The position numbers were made by a program, and so were the translations under genes. The notes under the pieces were generated by a model, which was not told the DNA's origin, searched no databases, and saw nothing but the letters and a program-made list of their open reading frames with translations. A stretch of DNA of 33,247 nucleotides from Bacteroidales bacterium. Lineage in GTDB: Bacteria; Bacteroidota; Bacteroidia; Bacteroidales; UBA12077. Location of the stretch: the NCBI GenBank assembly GCA_019038645.1, contig JAHOYT010000088.1, positions 1 through 33,247 of the forward strand, in the 5' to 3' direction. The number at the start of each line of letters is the position of its first letter. Within the stretch, counting starts at the first letter, position 1. This document shows, one piece after another, positions 4,926-24,645 of this stretch.

Positions 4926-5144
4926 TTTTGAGTTTATATTGTTAGTGTACAAATAAAAAATTTATTCGCTTTCTGGTTAAACTGATACTAATCGATACTT
5001 CCTGCTTCCTGTACCTGTAAATCTATTATTTCATGCCTGTATTCAATGCACGACAAATAAGAATTAATTTCTTTCATCTCACAGAGAAAAAATGAAGTAT
5101 CTTTTATAAAAGCTATTTTTTTTGTAAATTATAGAACTAAAATT

Positions 5145-5150
5145 GGAGGT
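5145..5150 (+). promoter_or_regulatory. Shine-Dalgarno deciding the start of the PhnD-like gene
   Basis: GGAGGT lies four bases before the ATG at 5155. A TTG at 5143 in the same frame would overlap this site and is a poorer start. An almost identical leader (AATTGGAGGTTAC) precedes the heme-copper subunit II gene at 16261, while most other genes here have no such site. Confidence 0.7.
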
Positions 5151-5154
5151 ACAT

Positions 5155-6027
5155 ATGATTGTTAGCTTTTTCAAATACTTCTCTTCACTGAGGTTATTAT
5201 TTGTATTTATTTTTGTATTTTCTTTTACAAATTCTAATAATGCACAGGAACCTTTAATATTAGGTATTCATCCATATTTGCCACATACAGAATTACAAAA
5301 ACGATTTACACCTTTGGTCGAATATCTTTCACGCGAAATAGGACAGAAAGTAATTGTACGGATAGGGATAAGTTATGAGGAGCATATAAATAGTATTGGT
5401 GTAGATAAGATTGATATAGCTTATATGGGACCGGCAAGTTATGTTAAGCTTGTTGAGGACTATGGTGAAAAATCACTTGTAGCAATTATTGAAACCAATG
5501 GTACACCATATTACCAGGGTAAAATATTTACAGGAATCAATAGTAGTATCGAAAGTATTTCTGAAATAGATATAGAGAAATGTGCCTTTGTTGACCCTAA
5601 TTCAACAGCGGGATATCTGATCCCGATGTATTTATTACTTTTAGAAAATAATAAAGATATAACGCCTGAAAGTATTAAGTTTCTTGGAAGCCATAATAAC
5701 GTGGCACTAGGCGTTTTAACAGGTGGTTTTGTTGCGGGTGCAATTAAAGAAGCCGTTTTTTATGATTTTCAAAAAAAAGGTTTGCGGAAATTAGCATCAA
5801 CACCTAAAATTCCTGAACACTCTTTTGTGGCTAGCTCAAAACTTCCTGAAGAAACTATTAATAAAATAAAGAAAGCCTTATTAAAGTTAAATGAAATCGA
5901 CGAAGGAAAACAAATTATGGCCAGTCTGCAAAAAAACATTACCGGCATGGCTACAGTTAACGACGTATATTTTAATGAACTTCGTGAGATAATTACTTAC
6001 TTGGAAAAAAGAGAAATAATAAGATGA
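5155..6027 (+). CDS. PhnD-like periplasmic substrate-binding protein (probable sensory partner of the next kinase)
   Basis: Starting at the ATG with GGAGGT ahead of it, the product has 290 residues: a signal peptide (hydrophobic 12-27, likely cleavage after NNA at 30) and a mature two-lobed binding protein. Family signatures are LGIHPYLPHTEL at 36-47, IDIAYMGPASYV at 87-98, FVDPNSTAGYLIP at 145-157 and GSHNNVALGVLTGGFVAGAIKE at 178-199. These match the PhnD/phosphite/phosphonate-type ABC binding family, which also includes sensory members such as the AioX arsenite-binding protein and the PhnD-like sensor part of TtrS. No ABC permease or ATPase is adjacent. The stop overlaps the start of the membrane hybrid kinase in ATGA, so the two are translationally coupled. 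I infer that it delivers a bound oxyanion or similar ligand signal to that kinase rather than feeding a transporter. The ligand cannot be read from sequence. Confidence 0.85.
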   Translation: MIVSFFKYFSSLRLLFVFIFVFSFTNSNNAQEPLILGIHPYLPHTELQKRFTPLVEYLSREIGQKVIVRIGISYEEHINSIGVDKIDIAYMGPASYVKLVEDYGEKSLVAIIETNGTPYYQGKIFTGINSSIESISEIDIEKCAFVDPNSTAGYLIPMYLLLLENNKDITPESIKFLGSHNNVALGVLTGGFVAGAIKEAVFYDFQKKGLRKLASTPKIPEHSFVASSKLPEETINKIKKALLKLNEIDEGKQIMASLQKNITGMATVNDVYFNELREIITYLEKREIIR

Positions 6028-9000
6028 AACAACTATTATTTGAAAAAGGCAATTATAAATACTGGCTGTTTTTCATGGCCTTTATTATTTCGCTGATAAT
6101 AATCTCTATTGCGGTTATAGAAAATATGCGAAAGAAACTAAAAGGAAACACACAGGAACATATGGCTGTGGATCTTAATTTTTTAAGTAATAACGTTAAG
6201 GATAGATTTCAGAAAGGTGATTATGAGAGCATAGATTCTTATGTATCTGGTTGGGCAGAACTTCATTCAAACAGAGTTGTTGAATTGAAACTTACCACAG
6301 CCAATGGTTATGTTTTAAGCCATTTTATAAGAGATAATAATTTAGTACCATGCTTTACTATAGAAGAGGAAATAGAATATTCGTATCATTCAAAAGCTAA
6401 TTTAAAATTAATTGGCGATTTTTCCGGTGTTAATAAAGAAATTAGTGATAATTACACCTACCTGAGTTTTGTTATTTTTATTGCATCTCTGGCATTGGGT
6501 TTTATTACCTGGTTAGCAATACGAAAAAATGTTCTGGCATCAGATTTGCAAAAACGAACAGTAAAATTAAAAGAAAGTGAAATAAAGTCCCGTGCATTGT
6601 CTGAGGCGGCTTTCGAAGCTGTGTTTATTTCTAAGAAAGGAATATGCTTGGAACAAAACCTGATGGCTGAGAAAATGTTTGGTTATAATTCTGAAGAGGC
6701 AATAGGAAACCCTGGTACAGATTGGATTATTCCGGAGCATAGAGAACTGGTAATGCAAAATATGTTTTCAGGATATGAGAAACCATACGAAGTTACAGCA
6801 TTACGAAAGGACCGAACAATATTTCCTGCTGAAATACATGCAAGTATGATGGTGTATAAAGGAGAAAATGTACGAATTACTTCTTTGCGCGATTTATCTG
6901 AACGTAAAAAATCCGAAAAACAAATCAAAAAACTTTCAACAGCAGTAGAGCAAAGTGCTAATACAATAGTTATTACTAATACCGAAGGTAATATTGAATA
7001 TACTAACCCTAAGTTTACTGAACTAACGGGTTATACAGCTGAGGAAGCTTTAGGACAAAACCCACGAATTTTAAATTCAGGTTCCCAGCCAAAAGAATAT
7101 TACATTGAATTATGGGAAACAATTAAAGCAGGGAAAACATGGAAAGGCGAATTTCATAACAAAACAAAAGATGGTAAATATTTTTGGGAGAATGTTACAA
7201 TTACGCCTATTAAAGATAGTACAGAGAAAATAGTAAATTACCTTGCTATAAAAGAAGATATTTCAGCAAGAAAAGAAGCTGAGCAAGCTTTGATAACAAC
7301 CGAAACAAAATTAAAATCTATTTTCGAAGCAGCAACTAATGTTTCATTTATAACAACAGATTTAGATGGAACCCAAGCAAAAATTTTAAGTTATAGCCCT
7401 GGATCTGAAAAAATATTTGGATATAAAGCAGAAGAAATTATTGGTAAGCCTGTTTCTATTCTTCGAAGAAGTGAAGATGTTGAGGCTTTTCCTGGAATAC
7501 AAGTAAGTTTAAAAAAAGGGAAAAAAGGAGTTACCAGTGAAGCTGTATTGGTTCGTAAATCAGGTGAACACTTTCCCGCCATATTAACAATTTATCCTTT
7601 AGCTGATGATAAAAATAATGTTTTTGGTGCATTAGGAGTAGCTTATGATATTACTGAGTTAAAACAAACGCAGTTAGAACTTATTACTGCCAAAGAAGAA
7701 GTAGAAGAAAGTGAAGACCTGTTAAACGATATCCAGCAATTGACCAAGGTTGGCGGATGGGAATATAATGTGGTAAATCAAAATATGTTCTGGACAAATG
7801 AAACCTATAGAATTCATGAAATGAAACCAGGTGAATTAGACCTGAGCTCCAAAGAACTTATTGAGAGAGGTGTGGAGTGTTACTACCCTGTTGACAGGCC
7901 AAAAATTTTAGAAGCATTTAATAATTGTGTTGATAACGGAAAACCTTACGACCTTGAATTTCCATTTACATCGGTAAAAGCGAAAAAAATATGGATTCGT
8001 ACCACCGCAAAAGCAGTAAAGGAAAAAGGCAAGGTAGTCCGTGTAATTGGAAATATTATAGACATAACTGATCGTAAGAAGTCCGATGAAGAAATCAGAG
8101 CTTATAATGAAGAACTTAAAACTACAACAGATGCGTTAAAAGATAATAATGAACAACTTCTTATGGCCAAAGAAAAAGCTGAAGAAAGCAATAAACTTAA
8201 AACTGAATTTCTTAATAATATGTCACATGAAATACGAACACCCATGAATGGAATAATGGGATTTTCGATCATGCTTAATAAGCCCGGACTGTCTGAAGAA
8301 AAAAGAAACCATTTTATAAATATTATTAACAACAGTAGTACACAACTATTACGAATTATTGATGATATATTGGAAATATCAAGGCTGGAAACCAGGCAAA
8401 TTGAAGCTATCGAAAATGAAATTTGCATTAATGATTTGCTTACTGAATTATTTTCTATTTTTAATGCTAAAGCTAAAGAAAATGAAATATCACTTCGTTT
8501 AAAAAAGGGACTTGCCGATATTGAAAGTAATGTATTTATTGATGATTCAAAATTATATAAGATTTTAAGTAATCTTATAGAAAACAGCCTGAAGTTTACA
8601 AATAAAGGTTTTATTGAATTTGGTTATCAACTTAAGAAAAATAAATTAGAATTTTACGTAAAAGATACAGGAATAGGTATAAAGCGTGAAAAACAGGAAG
8701 CTGTATTTGAGCGTTTTTCGCAGGAAGAAAAAGAATTATCCCGTACTTTTGGCGGACTGGGATTAGGTTTATCAATAGCAAAAGAAAATACAGAACTACT
8801 GGGCGGGGAAATTACAGTGAAATCAAAAAAAGGTGAAGGCTCAATTTTCTATGTTACAATTCCTTACAAGCCTGTTAATACAAAATTTAAAGAAAATAAA
8901 CCTTCAGTCAAAAAAAATAATTCAGCGTTAGAAGAATATTCAATACTAATAGCCGAAGATGATGAAGTAAACTTTTTGTATTTAGAGGAATTATTATCTG

Positions 9001-9302
9001 TACTGGATTTTAAATTTAAGATATATCATGCAAAAAACGGGAAAGAAGCTGTTGATATGTGTAAGTCCAATCCCGATATAAACCTTATTTTAATGGATAT
9101 TAAAATGCCGGTAATGGATGGACTTGAGGCTACTAAAAAGATTAAAAAACTACGACCGGAACTACATATTATTGCCCAAACTGCTTATAGTACGTCTGAA
9201 GATAAAAATAAAGCCATATCGGCAGGTTGCAATAACGTAATTACAAAGCCAATAAGCGAAAACGATTTAAATGTTTTAATAAAAGAATACTTTGCTGTAT
9301 AA
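6024..9302 (+). CDS. membrane hybrid sensor histidine kinase: periplasmic loop, four PAS domains, HisKA, HATPase, receiver
   Basis: 1092 residues. A first transmembrane helix at about 13-32, a periplasmic loop of about 110 residues and a second helix at about 147-166 place the sensor region outside the membrane, where the PhnD-like protein is found. Four cytoplasmic PAS domains follow (about 185-295, 300-420, 427-548, 565-685). The HisKA box has H735 in MSHEIRTP. The ATPase has N854 (N box), D881-TGIG (G1) and GLGLGL at 911-916 (G2). The C-terminal receiver has the acidic pair D979-D980, phospho-acceptor D1025 in LMDIKMP, T1053 and K1075. All key residues are present, so it should be active in kinase and phosphotransfer. 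There is no Hpt or output domain, so an unlinked phosphotransfer protein and regulator must complete the relay. It overlaps its upstream neighbour by 4 bases and its downstream neighbour by 1. Confidence 0.93.
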   Translation: MKQLLFEKGNYKYWLFFMAFIISLIIISIAVIENMRKKLKGNTQEHMAVDLNFLSNNVKDRFQKGDYESIDSYVSGWAELHSNRVVELKLTTANGYVLSHFIRDNNLVPCFTIEEEIEYSYHSKANLKLIGDFSGVNKEISDNYTYLSFVIFIASLALGFITWLAIRKNVLASDLQKRTVKLKESEIKSRALSEAAFEAVFISKKGICLEQNLMAEKMFGYNSEEAIGNPGTDWIIPEHRELVMQNMFSGYEKPYEVTALRKDRTIFPAEIHASMMVYKGENVRITSLRDLSERKKSEKQIKKLSTAVEQSANTIVITNTEGNIEYTNPKFTELTGYTAEEALGQNPRILNSGSQPKEYYIELWETIKAGKTWKGEFHNKTKDGKYFWENVTITPIKDSTEKIVNYLAIKEDISARKEAEQALITTETKLKSIFEAATNVSFITTDLDGTQAKILSYSPGSEKIFGYKAEEIIGKPVSILRRSEDVEAFPGIQVSLKKGKKGVTSEAVLVRKSGEHFPAILTIYPLADDKNNVFGALGVAYDITELKQTQLELITAKEEVEESEDLLNDIQQLTKVGGWEYNVVNQNMFWTNETYRIHEMKPGELDLSSKELIERGVECYYPVDRPKILEAFNNCVDNGKPYDLEFPFTSVKAKKIWIRTTAKAVKEKGKVVRVIGNIIDITDRKKSDEEIRAYNEELKTTTDALKDNNEQLLMAKEKAEESNKLKTEFLNNMSHEIRTPMNGIMGFSIMLNKPGLSEEKRNHFINIINNSSTQLLRIIDDILEISRLETRQIEAIENEICINDLLTELFSIFNAKAKENEISLRLKKGLADIESNVFIDDSKLYKILSNLIENSLKFTNKGFIEFGYQLKKNKLEFYVKDTGIGIKREKQEAVFERFSQEEKELSRTFGGLGLGLSIAKENTELLGGEITVKSKKGEGSIFYVTIPYKPVNTKFKENKPSVKKNNSALEEYSILIAEDDEVNFLYLEELLSVLDFKFKIYHAKNGKEAVDMCKSNPDINLILMDIKMPVMDGLEATKKIKKLRPELHIIAQTAYSTSEDKNKAISAGCNNVITKPISENDLNVLIKEYFAV

Positions 9303-12046
9303 TGAAAGAGGAACCAACATATCAGGAATTAGAAAAAGAAATTGAGGTGCTTCGAATAAAACTAAAAGAAAGCGAAGAAAAACACATAGAAATTCTGAAT
9401 ACTTTTAAATACGGAATTTATATAAAAACATCCGGGTATAAAATTGTTTATGCAAATTCTGCATTACAGGAAAAAGTAGGATACAATCCTGTTGGTGAAA
9501 CTTGTTACAAGGTATTATATAATAAAAATGAAGTATGTAGTTGGTGTGTTAATAAAAAATTCAGTGAAGAAAAAAGAAGTATTGATTATGAAATTAAAAA
9601 CGGGAATGAAAAATTTCTTAAGGTTAATAATGTTTTGCTCGAAAATAAAAATATTCTAACCGTTTTTAATGATATCACCGATATCAAGAATAATGAACAG
9701 GCATTGAAGGAAAGTGATCAACGATATAAGGATGCTGAAAAAATAGCTCAATTAGGACACTGGGTGTTAGATTTTAAGAATAATGAATTGTTTTGGTCTG
9801 ACCATATCTTTAGGATGTTTGGTTTAAAACCTAACGAGTTTACTCCAACATATGAATCATTTTTAGAAAATATCCATCCCGATGATCGGGATATGGTAAA
9901 CGAAGCTTACTCTAATTCATTAAAGAACAAATTACCTTATGAAATAGAGCTTAGAATTTTATTAAAAAACGGGGAATTAAAATACGTAAAAGAAATATGT
10001 AGAACAGAATATGATAAAGCAGGAAAACCAATTCGCTCATTTGGAATAGTTATAGATATTACCAGACAAAAGAAAATTGAACATGAAGCTATAATTGCAA
10101 AAGAAAGTGTTGAAGAGAGTGAATTGAAATTAAAAGAAAGAGTTAAAGAATTAAATGGGATATACGCTTTAGGGATATTATCGGAAAAATATGAAAATCT
10201 TGATGATATTTATACTGAATTGGTAAATAATATTATTCCTAAAAGTCTGCAATTCCCTGACAGAGTATTTGTATTGCTAAAAATTGATAAACAAACATTT
10301 TGTAATATTGAAAACTACAAATTATCAAAAAATAAACAAAATTTATCAGCTGGAGTAAATGTTTTTAAAAAACCAATTGGTAAATTAATTGTAGCATATA
10401 CAGAAAAAGTACCTTTTATAGACATATTTGAACAAAAACTTATTGATGCTTACGCCGAAAGAATATCAAAAATTATAGAACGTACCAGAACACAACAGGA
10501 ACTTAAAATTGCAGTTGATAAATTCAGAAAACTCAGCAGTATTACTTTTGAAGGTATTTTGATACACGAACAAGGTATAGTTATTGATGTAAACCATTCT
10601 TTGGCTACAATATTAGGTTATAAATACAATGAGCTTATTGGAAAAAACATTATAAAAATGGCTGTTCCTGAGAATTATATATCAATAGTTCAGAATAATG
10701 TAGCAGAGGCAAAAACAATACCATATGAAATTGAGGTGAGAAAAAAAGATGGATCTATAATTCCGGTTGAGATAGAATCAAAAAATTTCAATTATGAAAA
10801 TAAAAAAATAAGAGTAACTGCAGTAAGAGACATTACAGATCGTAAAAAAGCAGATCAGGCACTTAGAGAAAGTAAAGATCAATTGACCATTTCCAATAAA
10901 AATTTACTTGATGAAAGAAACATTTTTATGATAGGTAACGTGGTTGTTTTGAAATGGGAAAATAAAGAAGGATGGCCGGTAGAGTACGTATCGCAAAATG
11001 CAGCTAATGTGTTTGGTTACACAAATGAGGATTTTATTGATGGAAAAGTATGTTTTGCCGATTTAATTCATGAAGAAGATAAAGAAAGAGTTGGCAACGA
11101 AGTAAAAGATGCTATTGACAATAACTTAAATTATTTTAGTCACAAAGAATATAGAATTTTAAATAAATCGGGCGAAGAAGTTTGGCTTTATGATTTTACC
11201 ACAATTCTTAGAAACAATAAAAATGAAATAACTCATTTTTACGGGTATGTAATGGATGTTACGGAGCGTGTTAAAACAGAACATGAGATAATAAAAGCCA
11301 AAGAAAAAGCAGAAGAAACCGGGAAATTATTACAAGAACTTAATGCTACCAAGGATAAGTTTTTATCAATTATTGCACACGACCTAAAAAGTCCGTTTAC
11401 TTCAATGTTGGGTTTTTCCGATTTATTAATGAATAATTTTGATAAATATGATGTTCCAAAACAAAAGGACTTTGTTAATATTATACATAAGGGAGTAAAG
11501 AATACGCTTAAACTACTTGAAAATTTACTTCTATGGTCACGTACGCAAAGAGATAGTATTGAATTTAATCCGGAGAGTGAGAATCTATATTTATTATCCA
11601 ATGAATCTATTGATGTTTTAAGTCAACTGGCGGCAGAAAAATCAATAACCTTAATAAATGATGTACCGAAGGATATTTTTATAAATGCAGATAAAAATAT
11701 GCTGTCAACTATATTGCGCAATCTGATTTCAAATGCTATAAAATATACTCACAAAGGAGGCAGAGTTATAATTAAGACCTGTGCAAGTACATATAAAAAT
11801 AATCAAAAATATTGTGAGGTTTGTGTGAAAGACAATGGCGTTGGTATTGAACAAAAAAATCTATCCAAAATATTTAGTATTAGTGAAAATATTTCTACAA
11901 AAGGAACAGAAAATGAACATGGAACGGGTTTGGGATTAATTCTTTGTAAAGAGTTTGTTGAAAAACATGGTGGTGAAATTTGGGTGGAAAGTGAACATGG
12001 AAAGGCAGGAGGGAGTGAGTTTAAATTTACAATTCCATATGTTTAA
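9302..12046 (+). CDS. soluble PAS/GAF sensor histidine kinase
   Basis: 914 residues with no membrane segment; the start overlaps the previous stop (TAATG). It opens with the coiled-coil leader EEPTYQELEKEIEVLR, shared with the later eight-PAS kinase. Domains: PAS at about 30-130, with C68, C79 and C82 in a C-x10-C-x2-C pattern; PAS at 140-258; a GAF-like region at 283-395; PAS at 403-515; PAS at 537-658. The transmitter has H693 in AHDLKSP, N811 in SNAIKY, D844-NGVGI and GTGLGL at 874-879. The transmitter closely resembles that of the third kinase (both carry GLILCKEFVEKHGG), so the two are paralogues. It has no receiver domain. The signal is presumably cytoplasmic and could be redox or gas related given the cysteine cluster and GAF-like domain, but this is inference. 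Confidence 0.92.
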   Translation: MKEEPTYQELEKEIEVLRIKLKESEEKHIEILNTFKYGIYIKTSGYKIVYANSALQEKVGYNPVGETCYKVLYNKNEVCSWCVNKKFSEEKRSIDYEIKNGNEKFLKVNNVLLENKNILTVFNDITDIKNNEQALKESDQRYKDAEKIAQLGHWVLDFKNNELFWSDHIFRMFGLKPNEFTPTYESFLENIHPDDRDMVNEAYSNSLKNKLPYEIELRILLKNGELKYVKEICRTEYDKAGKPIRSFGIVIDITRQKKIEHEAIIAKESVEESELKLKERVKELNGIYALGILSEKYENLDDIYTELVNNIIPKSLQFPDRVFVLLKIDKQTFCNIENYKLSKNKQNLSAGVNVFKKPIGKLIVAYTEKVPFIDIFEQKLIDAYAERISKIIERTRTQQELKIAVDKFRKLSSITFEGILIHEQGIVIDVNHSLATILGYKYNELIGKNIIKMAVPENYISIVQNNVAEAKTIPYEIEVRKKDGSIIPVEIESKNFNYENKKIRVTAVRDITDRKKADQALRESKDQLTISNKNLLDERNIFMIGNVVVLKWENKEGWPVEYVSQNAANVFGYTNEDFIDGKVCFADLIHEEDKERVGNEVKDAIDNNLNYFSHKEYRILNKSGEEVWLYDFTTILRNNKNEITHFYGYVMDVTERVKTEHEIIKAKEKAEETGKLLQELNATKDKFLSIIAHDLKSPFTSMLGFSDLLMNNFDKYDVPKQKDFVNIIHKGVKNTLKLLENLLLWSRTQRDSIEFNPESENLYLLSNESIDVLSQLAAEKSITLINDVPKDIFINADKNMLSTILRNLISNAIKYTHKGGRVIIKTCASTYKNNQKYCEVCVKDNGVGIEQKNLSKIFSISENISTKGTENEHGTGLGLILCKEFVEKHGGEIWVESEHGKAGGSEFKFTIPYV

Positions 12047-12100
12047 AAAACGGAATTAGATGGTTATTATGATTTTATAATAAAACCAATAAGAGGTAAA

Positions 12101-12122
12101 TTGCGAATACTGAATTTCGCAA
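12101..12122 (+). promoter_or_regulatory. inverted repeat between the second and third kinase genes
   Basis: TTGCGAA and TTCGCAA are perfect 7-base arms separated by 8 bases, ending 19 bases before the ATG at 12142 within a 95-base gap. It could be an operator or an RNA hairpin limiting read-through or translation. No T-run follows, so it is not a standard terminator. Confidence 0.35.
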
Positions 12123-12141
12123 ATATTTAAAGATATTTAGA

Positions 12142-15100
12142 ATGAAGACAAAACCAACGTACGAGGAACTGGAAAAGGAATTAAGAATTTTAAAAGAAAA
12201 AGATAAATATCAAACTCTTTTAGATATAGCGGGAGTAATATTTGTTGCAATAGATACAAAAGGTATTGTAACTCTAGTTAATAAAAAAGCCTGTGAAATA
12301 TTCGGATATGAGGAAAATGAGATGCTCGACAAAAACTGGTTTGAAAACTTTGTTCCGGAACGTATAAAAAATGAAATTCTTCCTGTATCAAAAAAAATAC
12401 TTTCTGGAGAAATTGAAACAGCCGAATATTACGAGAACCCTATTTTAACTAAAAATGGTGAAGAAAGATTAATTTATTGGCACAACACGCATATAAAAGA
12501 TATAAACGGAAATATTACAGGGCATTTGAGTTCAGGCGAAGACATTACAGAACGTAAAAAAGCCTTACAAGCCCTTAAAGAAAGCGAAGAAAAATTTCGA
12601 ATGATTGCTGAAAATACAAGCGATATTATTTCTATCCATACCTTCGATTTGAAAATAAAATACCTCTACTTAAGTCCATCCAGCAAAATTGTAACTCGTT
12701 ACAAACCAGAAGAGTTGTTAGGGAAATCGGCTTTCGATTTTATGCATCCCGAAGATAAACGGGAGTTATTTCCTATACTTAAAGAGTATGTTAATTACAA
12801 ATTAAAAAATCTTCTTACTGCGGAAAAAAAGAAATTTAGTAAAACAATGGAAATACGCCTGAAAGCAAAATCCGGCGAATGGAGATATTTTAGCATTACA
12901 GCTGATATCGCTGGCAACCGACTTGTTTTTATATCGAGGGACATTACTGAAAAAAAATATACAGAAAAAGCTCTGAAAGTAAGTGAAGAAAAATACCGAA
13001 TAGTAGCAAACCACACAAATGACTGGGAATACTGGACAGATATTAACGGTAATTTTATTTATGTTTCACCGTCTTGCGAACGAATAACAGGCTATAAACC
13101 GAAGAAATTTTATGATGATAAAACATTAATGGAAAAAGTTATACATCCGGATGACAGAGAACGTTTTCATAATCACAAACATGAAATAAATGGATATGGT
13201 GATAGAAAATCGATAGAATTTAGAATTATTACGCAAAAAAAAGAAACACAATGGATTGGACATGTATGTGTAGAAGTTTTTGGGAAAGACGGCAAGCTAA
13301 TGGGGATAAGAGGAAGCAACAGGCTTATTACAAAGCAAAAAAATGCCGAAATAGCACTAAAAGAAAGTGAGTCGTATAATAAAGCTCTTTTTTACAGATC
13401 TAATACACCTTTGGTGGTTATGGATGTGAATACAAATGAGTTTATTGATTGCAACGTAGCAGCAATAAATATTTATGGATATAAAACCAAGGAAGAAGTA
13501 CTTGGCAAAACTCCACTTGATGTATCAACGGAAATACAGTACAATGGAGAGCTGTCATCAATAGCAGCAAAAAATAAAATTAATGAAGCAATAAAAAACG
13601 ATTTTGTTCTTTTTGAATGGCAACATCAAAGACCTAATGGTGATATTTGGGATGCTGAAGTTCACTTGATGAGTATAGAACACAACGGTAAAAATATATT
13701 ACAGTTTAGTTTGTTAGATATTACCGAACGCAAAAAAGCTGAAGAAGCGCTATGCGAGAGCGAGGTTAAGTATAGAACTATTTTTGAGAACACAGGATTA
13801 GCCTCTGTAATTGTGGAAGAAGACACCATCATTTCTTTGGCTAATACTAAATTTCAGGAATTATCGGGATACACTGCCAAACAAATCGAAGGACAAAAAA
13901 GCTGGACTGATTTTGTTGTTTCTGAAGATCTGGAGATGATGCAGAAACAGCACGAAATGAGAAGAAAAAATAGTGAAACGGCTTTAAGAAATTATGAATT
14001 TAGGTTCGTAAATAAAAAGAACGAGATAAAAGATATATTTCTGACAATAGGCCTGATTAAGGGAACTATGAAAAGTGTAGCATCATTACTTGATATTACC
14101 GAACGTAAAAAAGCTGAACAGATCTTAAAAGCAGAATATAATCGATTTAAAACAACTATGGATGCCATAGATGCGATAGTTTACGTTGCCGATATGCAAA
14201 CTTATGAGCTTTTATTTCTGAATAAACAAGCAAAAGATATTTTGGGAGATAAAATTGGAAAAAAATGCTTTTCTGTTTTGCAAAAAGGATTTACCGAACC
14301 CTGTAAGTTTTGTACAAACCACTTATTACTCAATAAAAAAGGAAAGCCAGAAGAACCTTACGTGTGGGAATTTCAAAATACAAAAACAAAACAATGGTAC
14401 CAATTACGGGATCAGGCTATACAATGGCCCGACGGAAGAATTGTAAGGCTGGAAATTGCAATTGATATTACTGATCGTAAAAAAGTGGAACAAGCCCTTA
14501 AAGAAAGCGAGGATCGTTTCAGAACAATATTTGAAGATGCTCCGGATGCAATCTTTTTAGCTGATCCAAAATCAGGAGTTATTCTTGATGCAAATACTGC
14601 TGCTTCACAATTACTACTAAAACCCCGTGAGGAAATTATTGGTATGAATCAGGCAGAACTCCATCCATCTCAAAAAGAAGAATATTCAAAAGGTATTTTC
14701 AAAAAGCATAAACAGGAATCCAAAAAAGGAATATCCACATATCCTGCTGAGATTAACGTTCTTCGATCTGATGGGAGTGAAGTAGTTGTTGAAATAATAG
14801 CTCAAATGATCCGAATTAATAATAAGGAGGTTCTTCAGGGCACATTTAGGGACATAACCGAACGAAAAAAAATGGAAGAAGAAATACAGCTTCAAAGCAA
14901 AATTGCAAAAAACATAGCAGAAGGTGTATTTTTAGTAAAAATAAGTGATGGCACAATTGTCTATACAAACTCTACATTTGAACAAATGTTTGGATATAAT
15001 TCAGATGAACTTATTGGTAGGCACGTTAGTGTTGTTAATGCACCGGTAGATAAAAGTTCTGAAGAAATTGCAAATGAAATTATACAGAGCCTTACTATAG

Positions 15101-15972
15101 AAGGAGTGTGGCATGGTGAAATTCAAAATATCAAAAAAGACGGAACTATATTCTGGTGCAGGGCAAGTGTTTCCACTTTTCAACATCCAAAATTTGGAGA
15201 AGTTTGGCTAGCTATACACGATGATATTACTAACCAAAAGAAAGCAGAACAAGCCTTAATAGAAAGTGAAAAACATTTGAGTGAATTAAACGCCACAAAA
15301 GATAAATTTTTCTCAATCATTGGGCACGATTTAAAAAACCCGATGGGAAATGTACTTGGATTTAGCTCCTTATTGCAGAAAAATTCAAAAAAATATAATG
15401 CGGAAAAGATTGCATCTTTTGCAAATATCATTAATAATTCTGCAGCCATATCATTAGAATTACTTGAAGCCCTGCTTGATTGGGCTAATATTCAAACAGG
15501 AAAAATTTTGGTGGTTAAAGAAAAACTTTGTTTATTAGAGTTGATTAATGATGTAATTTCCAAATTAGAAAAAACAGCGGCTCTTAAGAAAATAAAGATT
15601 GAACATAAGCTTTCAGGAAAAATAGAAATTTCCGCAGACCATAATATGTTTTCAACTATAATGAGAAATCTTTTAATAAATGCTATAAAATTTACTAAGC
15701 GAGGAGGAGAGGTATTTATAAAAGCCAAACAATACGCGAATTATACTGAAATACGTGTAAAAGATACAGGAATAGGAATTTCTGTTAATAAACAATCAAA
15801 ATTATTTCGAATTGAAGAAAATGTCTCAACAAGAGGAACTGAAGAAGAAGCCGGAACAGGCCTGGGTTTAATATTATGTAAAGAATTTGTTGAAAAGCAT
15901 GGTGGTAAAATTTGGGTCGAAAGTAAATTAGGAACAGGCAGTGAGTTTATATTTACAATTCCACTTGATTGA
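12142..15972 (+). CDS. eight-PAS soluble sensor histidine kinase
   Basis: 1276 residues, no signal peptide or membrane helix. After a KPTYEELEKELRILKEK coiled leader come eight PAS domains, about 22-145, 147-278, 280-406, 408-537, 539-662, 664-785, 787-912 and 916-1038. Most end in a DITERKKAEQAL-like linker. The sixth carries C709, C721 and C724 (C-x11-C-x2-C), echoing the first PAS of the preceding kinase. The transmitter has H1062 in GHDLKNP, N1180 in INAIKF, D1208-TGIGI and GTGLGL at 1238-1243, so it should be active. No receiver or output domain is attached. It is 95 bases downstream of the previous kinase on the same strand and 288 bases upstream of the heme-copper oxidoreductase pair. 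The repeated linker DNA makes internal recombination or domain-number change plausible. Confidence 0.92.
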   Translation: MKTKPTYEELEKELRILKEKDKYQTLLDIAGVIFVAIDTKGIVTLVNKKACEIFGYEENEMLDKNWFENFVPERIKNEILPVSKKILSGEIETAEYYENPILTKNGEERLIYWHNTHIKDINGNITGHLSSGEDITERKKALQALKESEEKFRMIAENTSDIISIHTFDLKIKYLYLSPSSKIVTRYKPEELLGKSAFDFMHPEDKRELFPILKEYVNYKLKNLLTAEKKKFSKTMEIRLKAKSGEWRYFSITADIAGNRLVFISRDITEKKYTEKALKVSEEKYRIVANHTNDWEYWTDINGNFIYVSPSCERITGYKPKKFYDDKTLMEKVIHPDDRERFHNHKHEINGYGDRKSIEFRIITQKKETQWIGHVCVEVFGKDGKLMGIRGSNRLITKQKNAEIALKESESYNKALFYRSNTPLVVMDVNTNEFIDCNVAAINIYGYKTKEEVLGKTPLDVSTEIQYNGELSSIAAKNKINEAIKNDFVLFEWQHQRPNGDIWDAEVHLMSIEHNGKNILQFSLLDITERKKAEEALCESEVKYRTIFENTGLASVIVEEDTIISLANTKFQELSGYTAKQIEGQKSWTDFVVSEDLEMMQKQHEMRRKNSETALRNYEFRFVNKKNEIKDIFLTIGLIKGTMKSVASLLDITERKKAEQILKAEYNRFKTTMDAIDAIVYVADMQTYELLFLNKQAKDILGDKIGKKCFSVLQKGFTEPCKFCTNHLLLNKKGKPEEPYVWEFQNTKTKQWYQLRDQAIQWPDGRIVRLEIAIDITDRKKVEQALKESEDRFRTIFEDAPDAIFLADPKSGVILDANTAASQLLLKPREEIIGMNQAELHPSQKEEYSKGIFKKHKQESKKGISTYPAEINVLRSDGSEVVVEIIAQMIRINNKEVLQGTFRDITERKKMEEEIQLQSKIAKNIAEGVFLVKISDGTIVYTNSTFEQMFGYNSDELIGRHVSVVNAPVDKSSEEIANEIIQSLTIEGVWHGEIQNIKKDGTIFWCRASVSTFQHPKFGEVWLAIHDDITNQKKAEQALIESEKHLSELNATKDKFFSIIGHDLKNPMGNVLGFSSLLQKNSKKYNAEKIASFANIINNSAAISLELLEALLDWANIQTGKILVVKEKLCLLELINDVISKLEKTAALKKIKIEHKLSGKIEISADHNMFSTIMRNLLINAIKFTKRGGEVFIKAKQYANYTEIRVKDTGIGISVNKQSKLFRIEENVSTRGTEEEAGTGLGLILCKEFVEKHGGKIWVESKLGTGSEFIFTIPLD

Positions 15973-16048
15973 GTACCTCTTTAAACAAGTTATTTATTAC
16001 GCAATAATAAAGTAATAAAGCATCCAAAAATATGTTAGCAGAATTTAA

Positions 16049-16063
16049 TTAGAAGAATTCTAA
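16049..16063 (+). promoter_or_regulatory. palindrome upstream of the heme-copper genes
   Basis: TTAGAAGAATTCTAA has perfect 6-base arms around GAA. It sits in the 288-base gap between the eight-PAS kinase and the heme-copper genes, about 200 bases before the start at 16261. The rest of the gap is very AT-rich, with no convincing terminator or TAnnTTTG promoter that I can see. It is a candidate operator only. Confidence 0.3.
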
Positions 16064-16251
16064 ATAAGAATTAAAGTAAATGAATACATAAATACCAAAA
16101 AGCCTTTATTAATAGTGTTTTGCATTAATATCTGAATTAAAATACTGATAATAAAATCGTTGTTTCTAAATTGAATGTTGTATTTTGTTGAACTTATTTT
16201 TAATTTTAGTCATCGAAAAATAAAATTATACTCAAATATTAACAAAAAATT

Positions 16252-16257
16252 GGAGGT
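16252..16257 (+). promoter_or_regulatory. Shine-Dalgarno of the heme-copper subunit II gene
   Basis: GGAGGT lies three bases before the ATG at 16261. It is a full consensus site, uncommon in this window, and fixes the start. Confidence 0.65.
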
Positions 16258-16260
16258 TAC

Positions 16261-16821
16261 ATGGTCGATTCAAGTATGGTCCTTTGGGGACAAACAATTG
16301 CTTACACAATGTATTGTCTGGTAATATTACTGGTAATGGGGTGGTTTGCTTATAAAATCACAAAAACAGGAAAAGACAATAGAGTTAAGCCGGCATTATT
16401 TTACACATTTGTAGGTTTTTTAACTGTGCTTGGGGTTTCTTTGCACATTATTACTTACAACACTATTCCCTGGACTCCTGTAGATTTAAACAGGAGCGAA
16501 TACGTACCGGATAAAACGTTTGATATTACGGTTGAAAACCACGAGTTTTTTCTGCCAGCAGAAAAACTGGTAATTGATTGTAATGATCTGGTTTTATTCG
16601 ATGTTACTTCAAAAGATTTAACCTACGGATTTGGTGTATTCAGGCAAGATAACAGTATGGTTTTCCAAATGCAGGTTGTTCCCGGACATCGAAATGATAT
16701 TTTATGGCAATTTGATAAACCAGGGATATACACTATTCGCTCTACCGAATATTCAGGACCACGGGGAATATTTATGATTTTGAAGGATGTTGTTGAAGTA
16801 TTACCCTGCGAGGGATCATAA
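16261..16821 (+). CDS. heme-copper oxidoreductase subunit II-like protein lacking CuA
   Basis: 186 residues with two N-terminal helices (about 7-32 and 44-66) and a periplasmic cupredoxin-like domain (about 85-182), the architecture of cytochrome oxidase subunit II. Aligned by eye with the CuA region, the first His is Y122 (in DLTYGFGVF). The two Cys of CSELCG are S161 and S165 (in STEYSG), the second His is G169, and only M172 remains. There is no CxxCH heme c motif. The domain therefore keeps the fold without copper or heme, as in quinol-oxidising relatives such as the bo3 subunit II. The catalytic subunit gene follows after 32 bases. I infer a structural or quinol-site role in a non-canonical NO reductase-like complex. 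A cytochrome c oxidase label would be misleading. Confidence 0.82.
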   Translation: MVDSSMVLWGQTIAYTMYCLVILLVMGWFAYKITKTGKDNRVKPALFYTFVGFLTVLGVSLHIITYNTIPWTPVDLNRSEYVPDKTFDITVENHEFFLPAEKLVIDCNDLVLFDVTSKDLTYGFGVFRQDNSMVFQMQVVPGHRNDILWQFDKPGIYTIRSTEYSGPRGIFMILKDVVEVLPCEGS

Positions 16822-16853: not shown

Positions 16854-18476
16854 ATGTCATTTAAAAATACATTTATGAACGGAGCCGAAAGCTTATTTAA
16901 GCCAGACTCCTTAACTCAAATTCAAAAAATTGTATTGCGCTTTGTTGTTGTAGGGCTTGTATTTTACGCCTTTGCAGTAATTGAGGGTATGATAATGCGA
17001 ATTTATGCCGTAGATCCTATATCATTTATTAGTACAGATCAATATTTTGCGATTCTTACGGCTCATCCTTTAGTAGGGATATTTGGTTCTACCTATGCTC
17101 TTGTGTTTGGTGCATTTCTTTTCCTTACACCATACTTAATGAAAAAACCATTATACAGTGTGAAACTGGCTAATTGGGCATTGATACTACTTACATCAGG
17201 AGTACTTCTTTTCTGGATAGCAGGATTTATTTCTCATTATGCACCATTATATACTTTATACTGGCCTTTACCAGCAGATTTTAGTCAGTTTAGTGTGTGG
17301 GGAGGTACATTTTTTATTTTAGGTATTGCTATCTTAATGGTGGGAACGTTGTTTTTCATTATTAATATTTTTAAAACCATTATATATACTCCTGAAGGTT
17401 GGGAAAAACAACCTGCAGCAGCGCTTTTGGGTTCTGCAATCGGTTATACTGGTTTAAGAAATATGTTACGTAAAAAAGAAAATAAAAAAGAACATCTCGT
17501 TCCTCTTCCTGTTGCTGCAATAGCACGAGGTACAGTTGATATGGTGTTAAATACAGGTATTATCTTATTTACCGGAGTGCTTATTCTGGTATTCATGTTA
17601 GGTAATATACTTGGTTTTGATTTAGAGGAAACAGCTGTTGATGCATTATTATATAAAAACTGGTTTTGGTGGGGTCTGGATTTAATAGCCGATGGTTTGG
17701 TACTTATATTTGTCGCCGGAACATGGTATTTGCTTGCAGTGATGATTACAGGCAAAAAATTATTTATGCAAAATATTGCAAGAGCAGCTTTGTTACTTGA
17801 ACTTGTTGTTTCATGGACAGTTTGGTCGCATCACTTATTATCAGATCAGGCACAACCTGCTGTATTAAAAGTTGTATCAGGAGAACTTGTTACAGCATTT
17901 GAGCTTATTACTCAAGGTTTAGCATTCTTTATTGTGCTAGCCACTTTATGGGCTGCCAGACCACTAAAAATGACAAACCCTTTAAAATTCTTATTGGGTG
18001 GCTTATTAGGATTTGCTTTAGCTGTACCGGCTGGTATTATGCAGGCAGATGTTGGTTTAAACCGAATCTTACATAATACCCAATGGATTATTGGTCCTCA
18101 TGTTCACGTAGCAATACTTGTTGGTTTAACCATGACATTGTACGCAGCAGTTTATATTTTATTCCCGATCGTTACTAACGGAGCAAAATTATATAGTCAA
18201 AAGCTGGCCAATATACATTTCTGGTTTCATCTATTTGGTGGAATTGGAATGGGTGCATTTATGGGTATGGCAGGACTAAATGGTATGTTACGAAGAACAC
18301 TTTATGTTGATGGTGAATTTAATACATATATGATATTAGCTGCATTATCAGGCTCTCTGCTTTTAATAGCATTTTTGGTTTTCTTTTACAATATAGTAAT
18401 GAGTCTTGGATTAAAAGGTGTAATTGGAATTTTTATGCCATCTAAACTAAAAACCAAAGAGTTACTACCAGAGTAA
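16854..18476 (+). CDS. non-canonical heme-copper oxidoreductase catalytic subunit (NO reductase-like, CuB His replaced by Asp)
   Basis: 540 residues, about 12-13 membrane helices. Heme ligands are present: H71 in LTAHPLVG, then H416 and H418 in GPHVHVAI, the last pair binding the high-spin and low-spin hemes. Two CuB histidines are H326 and H327 in WSHHLL. The first CuB ligand segment, normally WFFGHPEVY, reads WWGLDLIAD (272-280). By direct alignment D276 replaces the His and D280 replaces the cross-linked Tyr of A-type oxidases. E316 lies ten residues before the HH pair and could serve proton delivery. Established: heme-copper families with altered CuB ligands (eNOR, sNOR, gNOR, nNOR) have been proposed as NO reductases, and an eNOR was shown to reduce NO. 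I infer NO reduction fed by quinol. The exact subfamily needs a phylogeny. The gene is cotranscribed with subunit II and ends before a clear terminator. Confidence 0.82.
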   Translation: MSFKNTFMNGAESLFKPDSLTQIQKIVLRFVVVGLVFYAFAVIEGMIMRIYAVDPISFISTDQYFAILTAHPLVGIFGSTYALVFGAFLFLTPYLMKKPLYSVKLANWALILLTSGVLLFWIAGFISHYAPLYTLYWPLPADFSQFSVWGGTFFILGIAILMVGTLFFIINIFKTIIYTPEGWEKQPAAALLGSAIGYTGLRNMLRKKENKKEHLVPLPVAAIARGTVDMVLNTGIILFTGVLILVFMLGNILGFDLEETAVDALLYKNWFWWGLDLIADGLVLIFVAGTWYLLAVMITGKKLFMQNIARAALLLELVVSWTVWSHHLLSDQAQPAVLKVVSGELVTAFELITQGLAFFIVLATLWAARPLKMTNPLKFLLGGLLGFALAVPAGIMQADVGLNRILHNTQWIIGPHVHVAILVGLTMTLYAAVYILFPIVTNGAKLYSQKLANIHFWFHLFGGIGMGAFMGMAGLNGMLRRTLYVDGEFNTYMILAALSGSLLLIAFLVFFYNIVMSLGLKGVIGIFMPSKLKTKELLPE

Positions 18477-22186: not shown

Positions 22187-22603
22187 ATGAATTTTAATGA
22201 AATAAGAGAAGTCTTAATGGAAAAAGGATTGAAAGTTACACCACAACGATTAGCTGTTTTAGGAGCGGTTATTGAATTAGGTAATCATCCTTCTGCCGAA
22301 AACGTGATAGAATTCATTAAAGTAAATCATCCGAATATAGCTGTTGGGACAGTATATAAAACTCTTGAAACTTATGTTGAACAAGGAATTATTAAGAAAG
22401 TAAAATCGGATAGAGACATTATGCGTTATGATGCTGTTTTAGATAAACACCATCATCTACATTGTATTGAATCCGACAGAATAGATGATTATTATGACGA
22501 TGACTTAAACAAAATGATAGAGGAGTATTTTAGAAAAAAAGAAATTAATAATTTCAAAATCAAGAATATCAAATTACAAATTGTAGGAAATTTTATAAAC
22601 TAA
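22187..22603 (+). CDS. Fur-family regulator, PerR-like, without structural zinc cysteines
   Basis: 138 residues. The N-terminal winged helix carries GLKVTPQRLAVLGAVIE and the recognition segment IAVGTVYKTLETYVEQG. Aligned with Bacillus PerR, the regulatory metal ligands are all present as H34, D82, H88, H90 and D101. Asp rather than Glu at the last position is the PerR-type choice linked to metal-catalysed peroxide sensing. The structural zinc site is missing: only C93 remains of the first CxxC (HLHCIESD), and the protein ends at GNFIN where the second CxxC would follow. Zinc-less PerR proteins are known, for example in Leptospira. The peroxiredoxin start is 24 bases downstream, forming a peroxide-response operon behind the tandem palindromes. 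Function is inferred from the ligands and neighbour. Confidence 0.87.
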   Translation: MNFNEIREVLMEKGLKVTPQRLAVLGAVIELGNHPSAENVIEFIKVNHPNIAVGTVYKTLETYVEQGIIKKVKSDRDIMRYDAVLDKHHHLHCIESDRIDDYYDDDLNKMIEEYFRKKEINNFKIKNIKLQIVGNFIN

Positions 22604-22627
22604 TATTAACACTAAATACAAATTAAA

Positions 22628-23356
22628 ATGGAAGAAAAACCAGAACAGCAAGAAGTAATTTCAATGCCACGTATTGGAGACCCTGCACCGCAATTTAAAG
22701 CAGTAACAACTCAGGGAGAAATTAATTTTCCGTCAGATTATAAAGGAAAATGGTCTATATTATTTAGTCACCCTGCAGATTTTACACCAGTTTGTACTTC
22801 AGAATTTATGACTTTTGCAAATATGGAAAAGCAATTTAATGAAGCAAATTGTGAGCTAATAGGTTTGTCAATTGATGGATTATATAGCCATATTGCTTGG
22901 TTGCGAACAATTAAGGAAAAAATAGAATATAAAGGAATGAAAGATATCGAAGTTAAGTTTCCTTTAATCGAAGATATCAAAATGGATGTTGCTAAGAAAT
23001 ATGGTATGATTCAACCTAACGAAGATAGCACCAAAGCAGTGAGAGCTGTATTTTTTGTTGATCCAAAAGGAATCATTCGTGCTATAATTTATTATCCATT
23101 AAGTTTGGGCCGTAATTTTGATGAGCTTTACAGAGCATTGATTGCTATGCAAACTTCAGATGAGTTTGGTGTTGCAACACCTGCAGACTGGCGTCCCGGC
23201 GATGATGTAATTGTTACTCCCGCAGGATCATGTGGAATGGCACAGGAACGTATGGAAAACGAAGATATCGATTGTAAAGACTGGTTCTTCTGTACAAAAA
23301 AGTTAGATAAAGACGAAGTCCTGAAAAAAGTCCTGAAAAAAGTCCTGAAAAAATAA
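22628..23356 (+). CDS. Prx6-type peroxiredoxin
   Basis: 242 residues, cytosolic. The peroxidatic cysteine is C56 in HPADFTPVCTSEF, with T53 and R139 (AVRAVFF) completing the active site. The C-terminal arm carries C216 and C222 in CKDWFFC, as in archaeal Prx6-like enzymes where this pair acts as resolving cysteines, plus C202. The enzyme reduces peroxides, probably using thioredoxin-like or glutaredoxin-like reductants. The PerR-like gene ends 24 bases upstream and a strong terminator lies 27 bases downstream, so the two form a compact operon. The first ATG is used here. A second in-frame ATG at 22664 (MPRIGDPAP) would remove an unusual 12-residue polar leader and is possible. The C-terminus ends in three VLKK units encoded by perfect 12-base repeats. 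Confidence 0.93.
   Translation: MEEKPEQQEVISMPRIGDPAPQFKAVTTQGEINFPSDYKGKWSILFSHPADFTPVCTSEFMTFANMEKQFNEANCELIGLSIDGLYSHIAWLRTIKEKIEYKGMKDIEVKFPLIEDIKMDVAKKYGMIQPNEDSTKAVRAVFFVDPKGIIRAIIYYPLSLGRNFDELYRALIAMQTSDEFGVATPADWRPGDDVIVTPAGSCGMAQERMENEDIDCKDWFFCTKKLDKDEVLKKVLKKVLKK
23318..23353 (+). repeat. three in-frame 12-base tandem repeats at the peroxiredoxin C-terminus
   Basis: GTCCTGAAAAAA occurs three times without a mismatch (23318-23329, 23330-23341, 23342-23353), encoding VLKK-VLKK-VLKK directly before the stop. The unit length keeps the frame, so copy-number changes would alter only tail length. The A6 tracts also make it slippage-prone. Confidence 0.9.
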
Positions 23357-23484: not shown

Positions 23485-24645
23485 ATGAAGAATATATCAC
23501 TCATAATTTCAACTATTACAATTGCAGCACTCATTTTGGTTTCATGTAATAACCAGCATAATAGCAGAAAAGAATCAATTGAAAAATACCATAAAACGCT
23601 GGATTCAAGCGGGTTTTCTGTTTATTTGGGTACTACTATATTGAAACAAAAGGTTTTTACAAATGTTATTACAGCCGATATTGAAACCGACGCAGTTACC
23701 AGCGAACCAGGAGTGGATGCTGCTGATGACCCGGCAATTTGGGTGAATATTGAGAATCCTGAAAAAAGCTTAATCCTTGGTACAAATAAAAAGGGTGGTG
23801 TTCATGTTTATGATTTGGATGGAAAAGAATTGCAATATGTTCGTGCCGGTTGTATTAATAATATCGACCTAAGAGATAATTTTATGTATGAAGATCAGGA
23901 TGTTGTGATAGTAGCCGGAAGTAACTGCAAATTAAATTCTATATCGCTTTTTTATATTGATAAATCAACTAATGAACTATCGGACACGATTTTGAATATA
24001 AAATCATCAGTTGATTTTGTATATGGTCTTTGCATGTACAAAAGTTCTGTAACAGACAAATATTACGTGTTTGTGAATGGAGAAGGAGGAGAGGTTGAGC
24101 AATGGGAATTGAACTCACAAGGCGGAGAATTAAACGCTGATCTTGTACGTAATTTTAAAGTTAGTAGTAAACCCGAAGGAATGGTCGCTAACGATGAAGA
24201 AGGTATTTTATACCTTGGAGTTGAAGAAGAAGGAATTTTAAAAATAAATGCAGAACCCGAATTTGAGTTTGAAACAATTTGGCTAGAAGGCAGTAACCCT
24301 ACTGATCGGTCACTTGTATCTTCCGATATTGAAGGATTGGGATTATACAAAACAAAAGAAAAAACTTATCTGATAGCTTCCAGCCAGGGAAATTTCTCTT
24401 TTGCAATTTTTGAAATTGGTGAAATAGATAATTACTTATTTAGTTTTGTTATTGACGATGGCGAAATTGACGGTGTTATTGAAACAGATGGTATTGAAGT
24501 TGTTAATTTCCCGTTTAATGAAAAGTTTCCGGAAGGTATGTTGGTAGTACAGGATGGCTATAATTTTAGTAACGATTCTTTAAGAAATCAGAATTTCAAA
24601 TATATTTCCTGGGAAAAAATTGAAGTATTACTAAACAATCAATAA
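23485..24645 (+). CDS. lipoprotein beta-propeller phytase
   Basis: 386 residues. The N-terminus is a lipoprotein signal with lipobox LVSC and C21 as the acylated residue, placing it in the outer membrane or periplasm. The body matches beta-propeller (BPP/3-phytase) enzymes: DDPAIWVN at 81-88, the NKKGGVHVYDLDGKELQYVRAG blade at 101-122, a SSDIEGLGLY stretch and NFPEGMLVVQDG-like strands near the end (PEGMLVVQDG). Acidic residues in these loops bind the calcium ions needed for hydrolysis of phytate to lower inositol phosphates. The role would be release of phosphate from organic phosphorus outside the cytoplasm. It stands alone between the peroxiredoxin terminator and the antiporter, with no visible Pho box. 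A TonB-dependent receptor, sometimes associated with phytases in this phylum, is not adjacent. Confidence 0.88.
   Translation: MKNISLIISTITIAALILVSCNNQHNSRKESIEKYHKTLDSSGFSVYLGTTILKQKVFTNVITADIETDAVTSEPGVDAADDPAIWVNIENPEKSLILGTNKKGGVHVYDLDGKELQYVRAGCINNIDLRDNFMYEDQDVVIVAGSNCKLNSISLFYIDKSTNELSDTILNIKSSVDFVYGLCMYKSSVTDKYYVFVNGEGGEVEQWELNSQGGELNADLVRNFKVSSKPEGMVANDEEGILYLGVEEEGILKINAEPEFEFETIWLEGSNPTDRSLVSSDIEGLGLYKTKEKTYLIASSQGNFSFAIFEIGEIDNYLFSFVIDDGEIDGVIETDGIEVVNFPFNEKFPEGMLVVQDGYNFSNDSLRNQNFKYISWEKIEVLLNNQ

Follow-up and report, generated by a model that had tools for sequence, protein, structure and literature searches.

The window, the whole stretch of 33,247 nucleotides analysed here, is an entire contig from a draft genome of 3.39 Mb that is 96.9% complete. 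Within it we observed a two-gene operon encoding a cupredoxin-type subunit II and a heme-copper catalytic subunit I (Table 1). The COX1 fold was present in subunit I together with the heme ligands of helices II and X, and its top NCBIfam match was CtaD/CoxA, which scored 110 bits where the cut-off is 671. No NOR model was among its four NCBIfam matches, which agrees with the suggestion of an earlier, sequence-only reading of this DNA that searches of the norB type can miss the enzyme. That reading had also given the reading frame, its length and the residues H71, D276, D280, H326/H327 and H416/H418, all of which were borne out. Subunit II showed weak matches to COX2 (Pfam, 0.0064) and CoxB (NCBIfam, 1.4e-9), both under the curated cut-offs, and in 79 of the 80 loci fetched the gene immediately 5' of subunit I encodes a relative of it.

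Table 1. Features of the operon and of its two products, in order of position in the window
Feature	Position	Strand	Basis
Operon leader, A+T-rich, without Rrf2 gene	15973..16260	+	Nearest loci (L033, L034, L036-L041) likewise without Rrf2
Subunit II, cupredoxin-type, without CuA ligands	16261..16821	+	186 aa; directly 5' of subunit I reading frame
CuA-loop remnant, S161-T-E-Y-S165-G-P-R-G169-I-F-M172	16741..16776	+	Aligned with the Cys-Glu-Cys-His-Met loop of six B-type and three eNOR-motif subunits II
Subunit I, heme-copper catalytic, gNOR-like	16854..18476	+	Reading frame of 540 aa; Pfam COX1 4e-58, residues 25-500
H71, low-spin heme ligand, helix II	17064..17066	+	His in all 37 rows, five MAFFT modes; 91/91 in family
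D276, place of helix VI CuB/FeB His	17679..17681	+	91/91 in family; His in B-type and c/qNOR (hhalign); register uncertain by about one residue
D280, place of oxidase Tyr or c/qNOR FeB Glu	17691..17693	+	91/91 in family; hhalign; register uncertain by about one residue
H326 and H327, two helix VII metal ligands	17829..17834	+	91/91 in family; aligned with HH
E350, aligned with second conserved c/qNOR Glu	17901..17903	+	MAFFT, 5/5 modes; 91/91 in family
A357, K-channel Lys position	17922..17924	+	K in 7/8 A-type, T in 9/9 B-type rows
H416 (high-spin heme ligand) and H418 (low-spin heme ligand)	18099..18107	+	91/91 in family; aligned with helix X HxH

The family of subunit I was assembled from 111 phmmer matches. 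Three were left out, two of them (L031 and L032) being pieces on two contigs of one genome and the third (L115) an A-type protein, and the remaining 108, which included duplicate fetches, gave 91 distinct full-length rows, the window included. The loci had been fetched with two peptide patterns (about residues 266-272 and 466-472), neither of which covers D276 or D280. Seven residues (H71, D276, D280, H326, H327, H416 and H418) were invariant across the 91 rows, so the pattern is not a product of chance; E350, H407 and N408 were also identical in every member.

The histidine sextet of subunit I is incomplete, with five of six kept and D276 in the place of the helix VI histidine. No histidine was found in residues 215-325, which leaves helix VI without one. 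Characterised members draw their CuB/FeB ligands from helices VI and VII, which rules out a normal three-His site here. The sequence-only reading had named another histidine completing such a site as counting against its proposal, and none was available. Tyrosine is similarly sparse, with a single one (Y292, 16 residues past D276) in predicted helix VI (270-299) and none in predicted helix VII (306-329); O2 reductases carry their cross-linked Tyr in helix VI (A, B) or VII (C). The loss of the Tyr and of one CuB ligand, which the same reading had raised as an argument against O2 reduction, thus held in all 91 members. A published heme-copper data set discarded sequences without six histidines (PMC3084760, in the sections consulted), so such proteins drop out of it; with gNOR-type exceptions on record, we did not take the missing sixth histidine as exclusion from the superfamily.

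The sequence-only reading had placed D276 at the histidine and D280 at the tyrosine of the oxidases, and the alignments supported this register against some groups and not others. By offset scores against 30 references, D276 on the histidine was the best fit of residues 260-275 in 17 of 17 A/B, 3 of 3 eNOR and 3 of 3 qNOR rows, while a fit one residue later was found in 3 of 3 cNOR rows. For residues 278-298 the fit was one residue later in 12 of 17 A/B and 3 of 3 eNOR rows, and at D276 in 3 of 3 qNOR rows. The simplest reading of these split scores is a probable one-residue insertion on the C-terminal side of D276. Of five MAFFT modes, three placed D276 on the histidine and two on the next residue. 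With hhalign, D276 and D280 met His and Tyr of the B-type proteins in 4 of 4 modes, and, in 3 of 4 modes, His and Glu of c/qNOR, where the overall probability was no more than 17-67%. The register did not carry over to the A-type profile, where D280 fell on the histidine and D276 in a gap, to eNOR, where D276 fell one residue before the histidine, or to the C-type, where it fell one after in 2 of 4 modes and the other two did not reach the site. A phmmer alignment to PDB 4g7r, which we take to be Thermus ba3, set D276 on His and D280 on Tyr free of gaps, and that to 8ucj opened a gap just after D276. Overall, these alignments suggest that D276 and D280 likely, if not provably, occupy the His and Tyr positions.

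An AlphaFold model showed the superfamily fold, but its pLDDT was 60-63 at residues 261-290, making it weak at the site. The structure alignment held 61 rows. All Foldseek and VIA matches among the 50 rows listed were oxidases, and the absence of NOR chains from these is uninformative. This whole-fold match, together with the retention of all heme ligands, could speak for an O2 reductase with D276 as an unusual CuB ligand and a different residue standing in for the tyrosine. We judge this very improbable, given that a cross-linked Tyr is regarded as a hallmark of O2 reductases (PMC3084760) and that neither helix VI nor helix VII offers a Tyr at the site. The K-channel Lys is also absent, I278 stands where HPEVY has Glu on the gap-free reading, and the genome carries a separate bd oxidase.

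The acidic residues of the site resemble those of the NO reductases. In the 2.2 Å structure of the qNOR AxqNOR, the FeB ligands are His486, His537 and His538, and Glu490 lies next to the metal; the equivalent Glu is a ligand in PacNOR and NmqNOR (PMC10256718). Glu490, Glu494 and Glu559 have been placed near FeB (PMC13087809). D280 lies four residues past D276, the same spacing as Glu490 after His486. In the alignment column of E350, Glu was observed in 6 of 6 c/qNOR rows and in none of the 24 A, B, C, eNOR and Azospirillum rows, consistently over five of five MAFFT modes, and hhalign agreed on the c/qNOR match in 3 of 4 modes. Against eNOR, one of four hhalign modes matched E350 with E322 of the Thermus eNOR-like protein, with a helix VIII register that differs from that of MAFFT. 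We infer that the c/qNOR glutamate matched by E350 is Glu559. No mention of this match was found in the parts of the literature searched.

In subunit II, the CuA ligands Cys, Cys and His are replaced by Ser, Ser and Gly in 80 of 80 rows, while CuA was kept in the six B-type and three eNOR-motif subunits II compared; among the two A-type subunits II compared, the Nostoc one also lacks CuA. Because the ligands are lost throughout, quinol is the likely electron donor. The K-channel Lys of subunit I is replaced by Ala (A357), and both losses would fit a quinol-dependent enzyme that does not pump protons. Loss of CuA and of one canonical metal ligand could also mark a catalytically dead or sensory homologue. 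This appears extremely improbable to us, as all 91 members share the remaining ligands and the new acids without exception and subunit II is kept upstream in 79 of 80 loci, which speaks for catalysis.

We built a tree from 37 rows, including 7 of the 91 family rows, on the MAFFT auto alignment, in which the helix VI register is one residue off the other reading. The family formed one clade (100/100) with a stem of 1.49, and the A-type rows (100/100) and the B-type rows with eNOR (100/99) formed others. The sequence-only reading had named placement inside a clade of proven O2 reductases as evidence against it; in the tree, none of the sampled A-, B- or C-type clades included the family. By the AU test, grouping of the family with B (0.53), A (0.54), c/qNOR (0.17) or C (0.07) was not rejected; joining with the whole A or B clade would suit an O2 reductase. 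A common clade of the family and the three eNOR-motif rows was rejected (p-AU 0.004). These eNOR rows, from Thermomicrobium, Thermus and Defluviimonas plasmid loci, were named by their Gln motif only.

A tblastn search of plasmids gave 44 records, with 22-33% identity at the best places. The Azospirillum brasilense plasmid locus (L147:981-2978) encodes a COX1-family protein (4.1e-30) on a very long branch (2.3), in which Tyr replaces the first of the two helix VII histidines and YFH replaces the HFH of helix X; copies with 94-98% identity were observed on two more Azospirillum plasmids. Plasmid 4 of Thermus thermophilus isolate TTHNAR1 (L146:1983-3668) encodes an eNOR-like subunit I (GHGAQQ) with Lys in place of the second helix X His (HFK), followed by an Rrf2 gene and a DUF542 gene.

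The gene was observed full-length in 9 of 20 genomes of the genus, the window's own included, and in 13 of the 59 genomes searched overall, the full-length members being at least 69% identical. Among 395 genomes sampled across the phylum, 11 were carriers (own genome included), as were 4 of 347 genomes from the phylum of an Acidobacteriota-titled MAG (this centre genome included). Weaker family members were found in neither the 395 genomes (E 1e-60) nor the 347 (E 1e-25). One genome collection contained at least 317 relatives (tblastn, E 1e-3), the best 80 of the 317 all being at least 74% identical, and the close relatives are titled Bacteroidales or Bacteroidetes. This patchy distribution suggests loss or transfer.

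Several known systems share features with the window pair. The ba3-type (B) proteins had the highest identity of the sampled rows outside the family (22.7-27.9%) and align in helix VI with D276 at His and D280 at Tyr, but they have the Tyr and a third CuB His, and CuA in the six subunits II compared. The eNOR proteins are likewise heme-copper proteins with a cupredoxin subunit and a replaced Tyr (Gln in eNOR, Asp here); unlike the window pair, they keep the CuB His and the CuA ligands. In c/qNOR, the FeB Glu aligns with D280 and the second conserved Glu with E350, and qNOR uses quinol, as the window enzyme may. The differences are an FeB His where the window protein has Asp, an identity of only 13-19% over 419-456 aligned positions, and a partner that is a cytochrome c or a fused domain rather than a cupredoxin.

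The closest description is that of gNOR, with D as active-site residue, no proton channel and a cupredoxin second subunit (PMC8756737, including its table A4). In the sections of the literature consulted, gNOR (norGH) is described as quinone-oxidising and non-electrogenic (PMC8906906), and in 2024 it was listed as proposed, not characterised, and related to the B-family (PMC11388526). In NORs the place of the Tyr is taken by E, Q, D or N, and certain NOR types have Asp for one CuB/FeB His (PMC3475470, citing Hemp and Gennis 2008 and Sievert 2008); these types are presumably gNOR. Compared by published description only, the window pair shares with gNOR a cupredoxin-type partner and an Asp at the active site, D280 taking the Tyr position in the register against B-type proteins, and its subunit I shares the Asp for one CuB/FeB His (D276, subject to its register). 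The hosts named for gNOR differ from the Bacteroidota host of the window pair: Sulfurimonas, Sulfurovum and Persephonella (PMC8756737), with Methylomirabilis also among them (PMC8906906). No description of gNOR in Bacteroidota was found in the parts of the literature searched.

The missing Tyr/His pair, a NOR-like glutamate at E350 and the lack of CuA together point to a quinol-dependent NO reductase, and we consider it quite likely that the pair is such an enzyme of the gNOR type, the fit to gNOR being one of description. As the published gNOR features fit as far as they were compared, we file the pair as a probable new member of this already proposed family. The sequence-only reading had suggested one of the NOR families with altered CuB ligands (eNOR, sNOR, gNOR, nNOR) or an unnamed branch, and its proposal is supported for gNOR by these descriptions, the eNOR grouping having been rejected. 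The idea of the family is itself not new; what we add is the E350 match, the absence of CuA ligands in all 80 rows, the linkage to Rrf2-type genes and the distribution in Bacteroidota.

We regard it as unlikely that the family is an NO reductase lineage of its own, apart from the named gNOR. Such a lineage would unite a non-heme site of two His and two Asp (possibly binding iron) and E350 with a quinol-oxidising, cupredoxin-partnered scaffold; NO reduction would then have arisen independently here, and many Bacteroidota would have an Rrf2-type gene next to it. An unnamed heme-copper branch with its own chemistry, either another small substrate or NO handling that does not lead to N2O, would resemble gNOR superficially. 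The tightness of the set by identity, the lack of weaker members in the genomes searched and the long stem are in keeping with such a branch, as are an AU test that leaves its place beside A, B or c/qNOR unsettled and a comparison with gNOR made by description. The fit of the published gNOR features and the match of E350 and D280 to NOR residues weigh against it, and we find it decidedly unlikely.

In the preferred reading, a gNOR-type NO reductase that depends on quinol, the low-spin heme (H71, H418) would receive electrons from (mena)quinol without CuA and pass them to the high-spin heme (H416). D276, H326 and H327 would coordinate a non-heme metal, D280 serving either as its fourth ligand or as a proton donor, and two NO would be coupled to N2O at this metal. 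E350 may act as a proton relay, as is thought for the second glutamate of c/qNOR, and the enzyme would probably operate without proton pumping. Its most likely role would be to remove NO arising around nitrite reduction, with release of N2O. We propose this role for a genome that carries a bd oxidase and an ammonifying nitrite reductase and in which no second COX1-type enzyme was found; one match each was observed to COX1, bd oxidase and NrfA. None was observed to Hcp, Sec-type NosZ or NirK, which counts against the NO-reductase reading. If NO is indeed reduced, many Bacteroidota hold an N2O-forming step that goes unnamed by the curated models tried. NO is toxic and N2O is a greenhouse gas, and the enzyme most likely converts the one into the other; the family also offers clear residues for testing the proposed gNOR activity.

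Across 43 hand-picked genomes, neither NrfA nor NosZ was clearly linked to the operon, which likewise counts against that reading. NrfA was observed in 13 of 21 carriers versus 10 of 22 non-carriers plus one fragment (Fisher p 0.36), and NosZ in 4 of 21 versus 1 of 22 (Fisher p 0.19); one of the NrfA genes counted, that of G230, has an internal stop. Two carriers less than 90% complete (G002 and G008) were left out of this comparison, and the non-carriers all came from the window's own order while ten of the carriers are more distant.

In favour of the NO-reductase reading, an Rrf2-type gene was observed 5' of the operon in 48 of the 73 loci with at least 1200 bases upstream; for all 80 loci the count was 49 by one clustering and 50 by phmmer with one Rrf2 protein. 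Across the 80 loci, all 51 Rrf2-type proteins showed a three-cysteine pattern. Pfam was run on two of them, both passing the Rrf2 cut-off; NCBIfam was run on four, all of which passed only the cut-off of the Rrf2 superfamily and failed those for NsrR and the other specific regulators. The Rrf2 gene is absent from the window's own clade, which counts against the NO-reductase reading, and no clear shared operator motif was found upstream in that clade. At one locus (L106), a two-piece Crp-type regulator and DUF1858/DUF2249, FeS_assembly_P and hemerythrin genes lie downstream of the operon, a set that looks like one for NO stress and speaks for the reading. Its occurrence in full at only 1 of 80 loci counts against it; the neighbour search used single queries and 6 kb flanks, many of them truncated where a contig ended.

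Two short COX1-like membrane proteins, of 356 and 126 aa, are encoded downstream of the gNOR-like operon of L106, beside the NO-stress-like genes (L106:9826-10893 and L106:11285-11662), and a further one of 163 aa was observed in L130. Upstream of the operon in the window (5143-15972), a gene for a phosphonate-type periplasmic binding protein is followed by three very large reading frames, the first two of which are PAS histidine kinases by Pfam. Downstream, a Fur-family regulator adjoins a peroxiredoxin (22187-23356), apparently a peroxide-response pair, and positions 23485-24645 encode a Phytase-family protein (PF02333, 1.9e-85).
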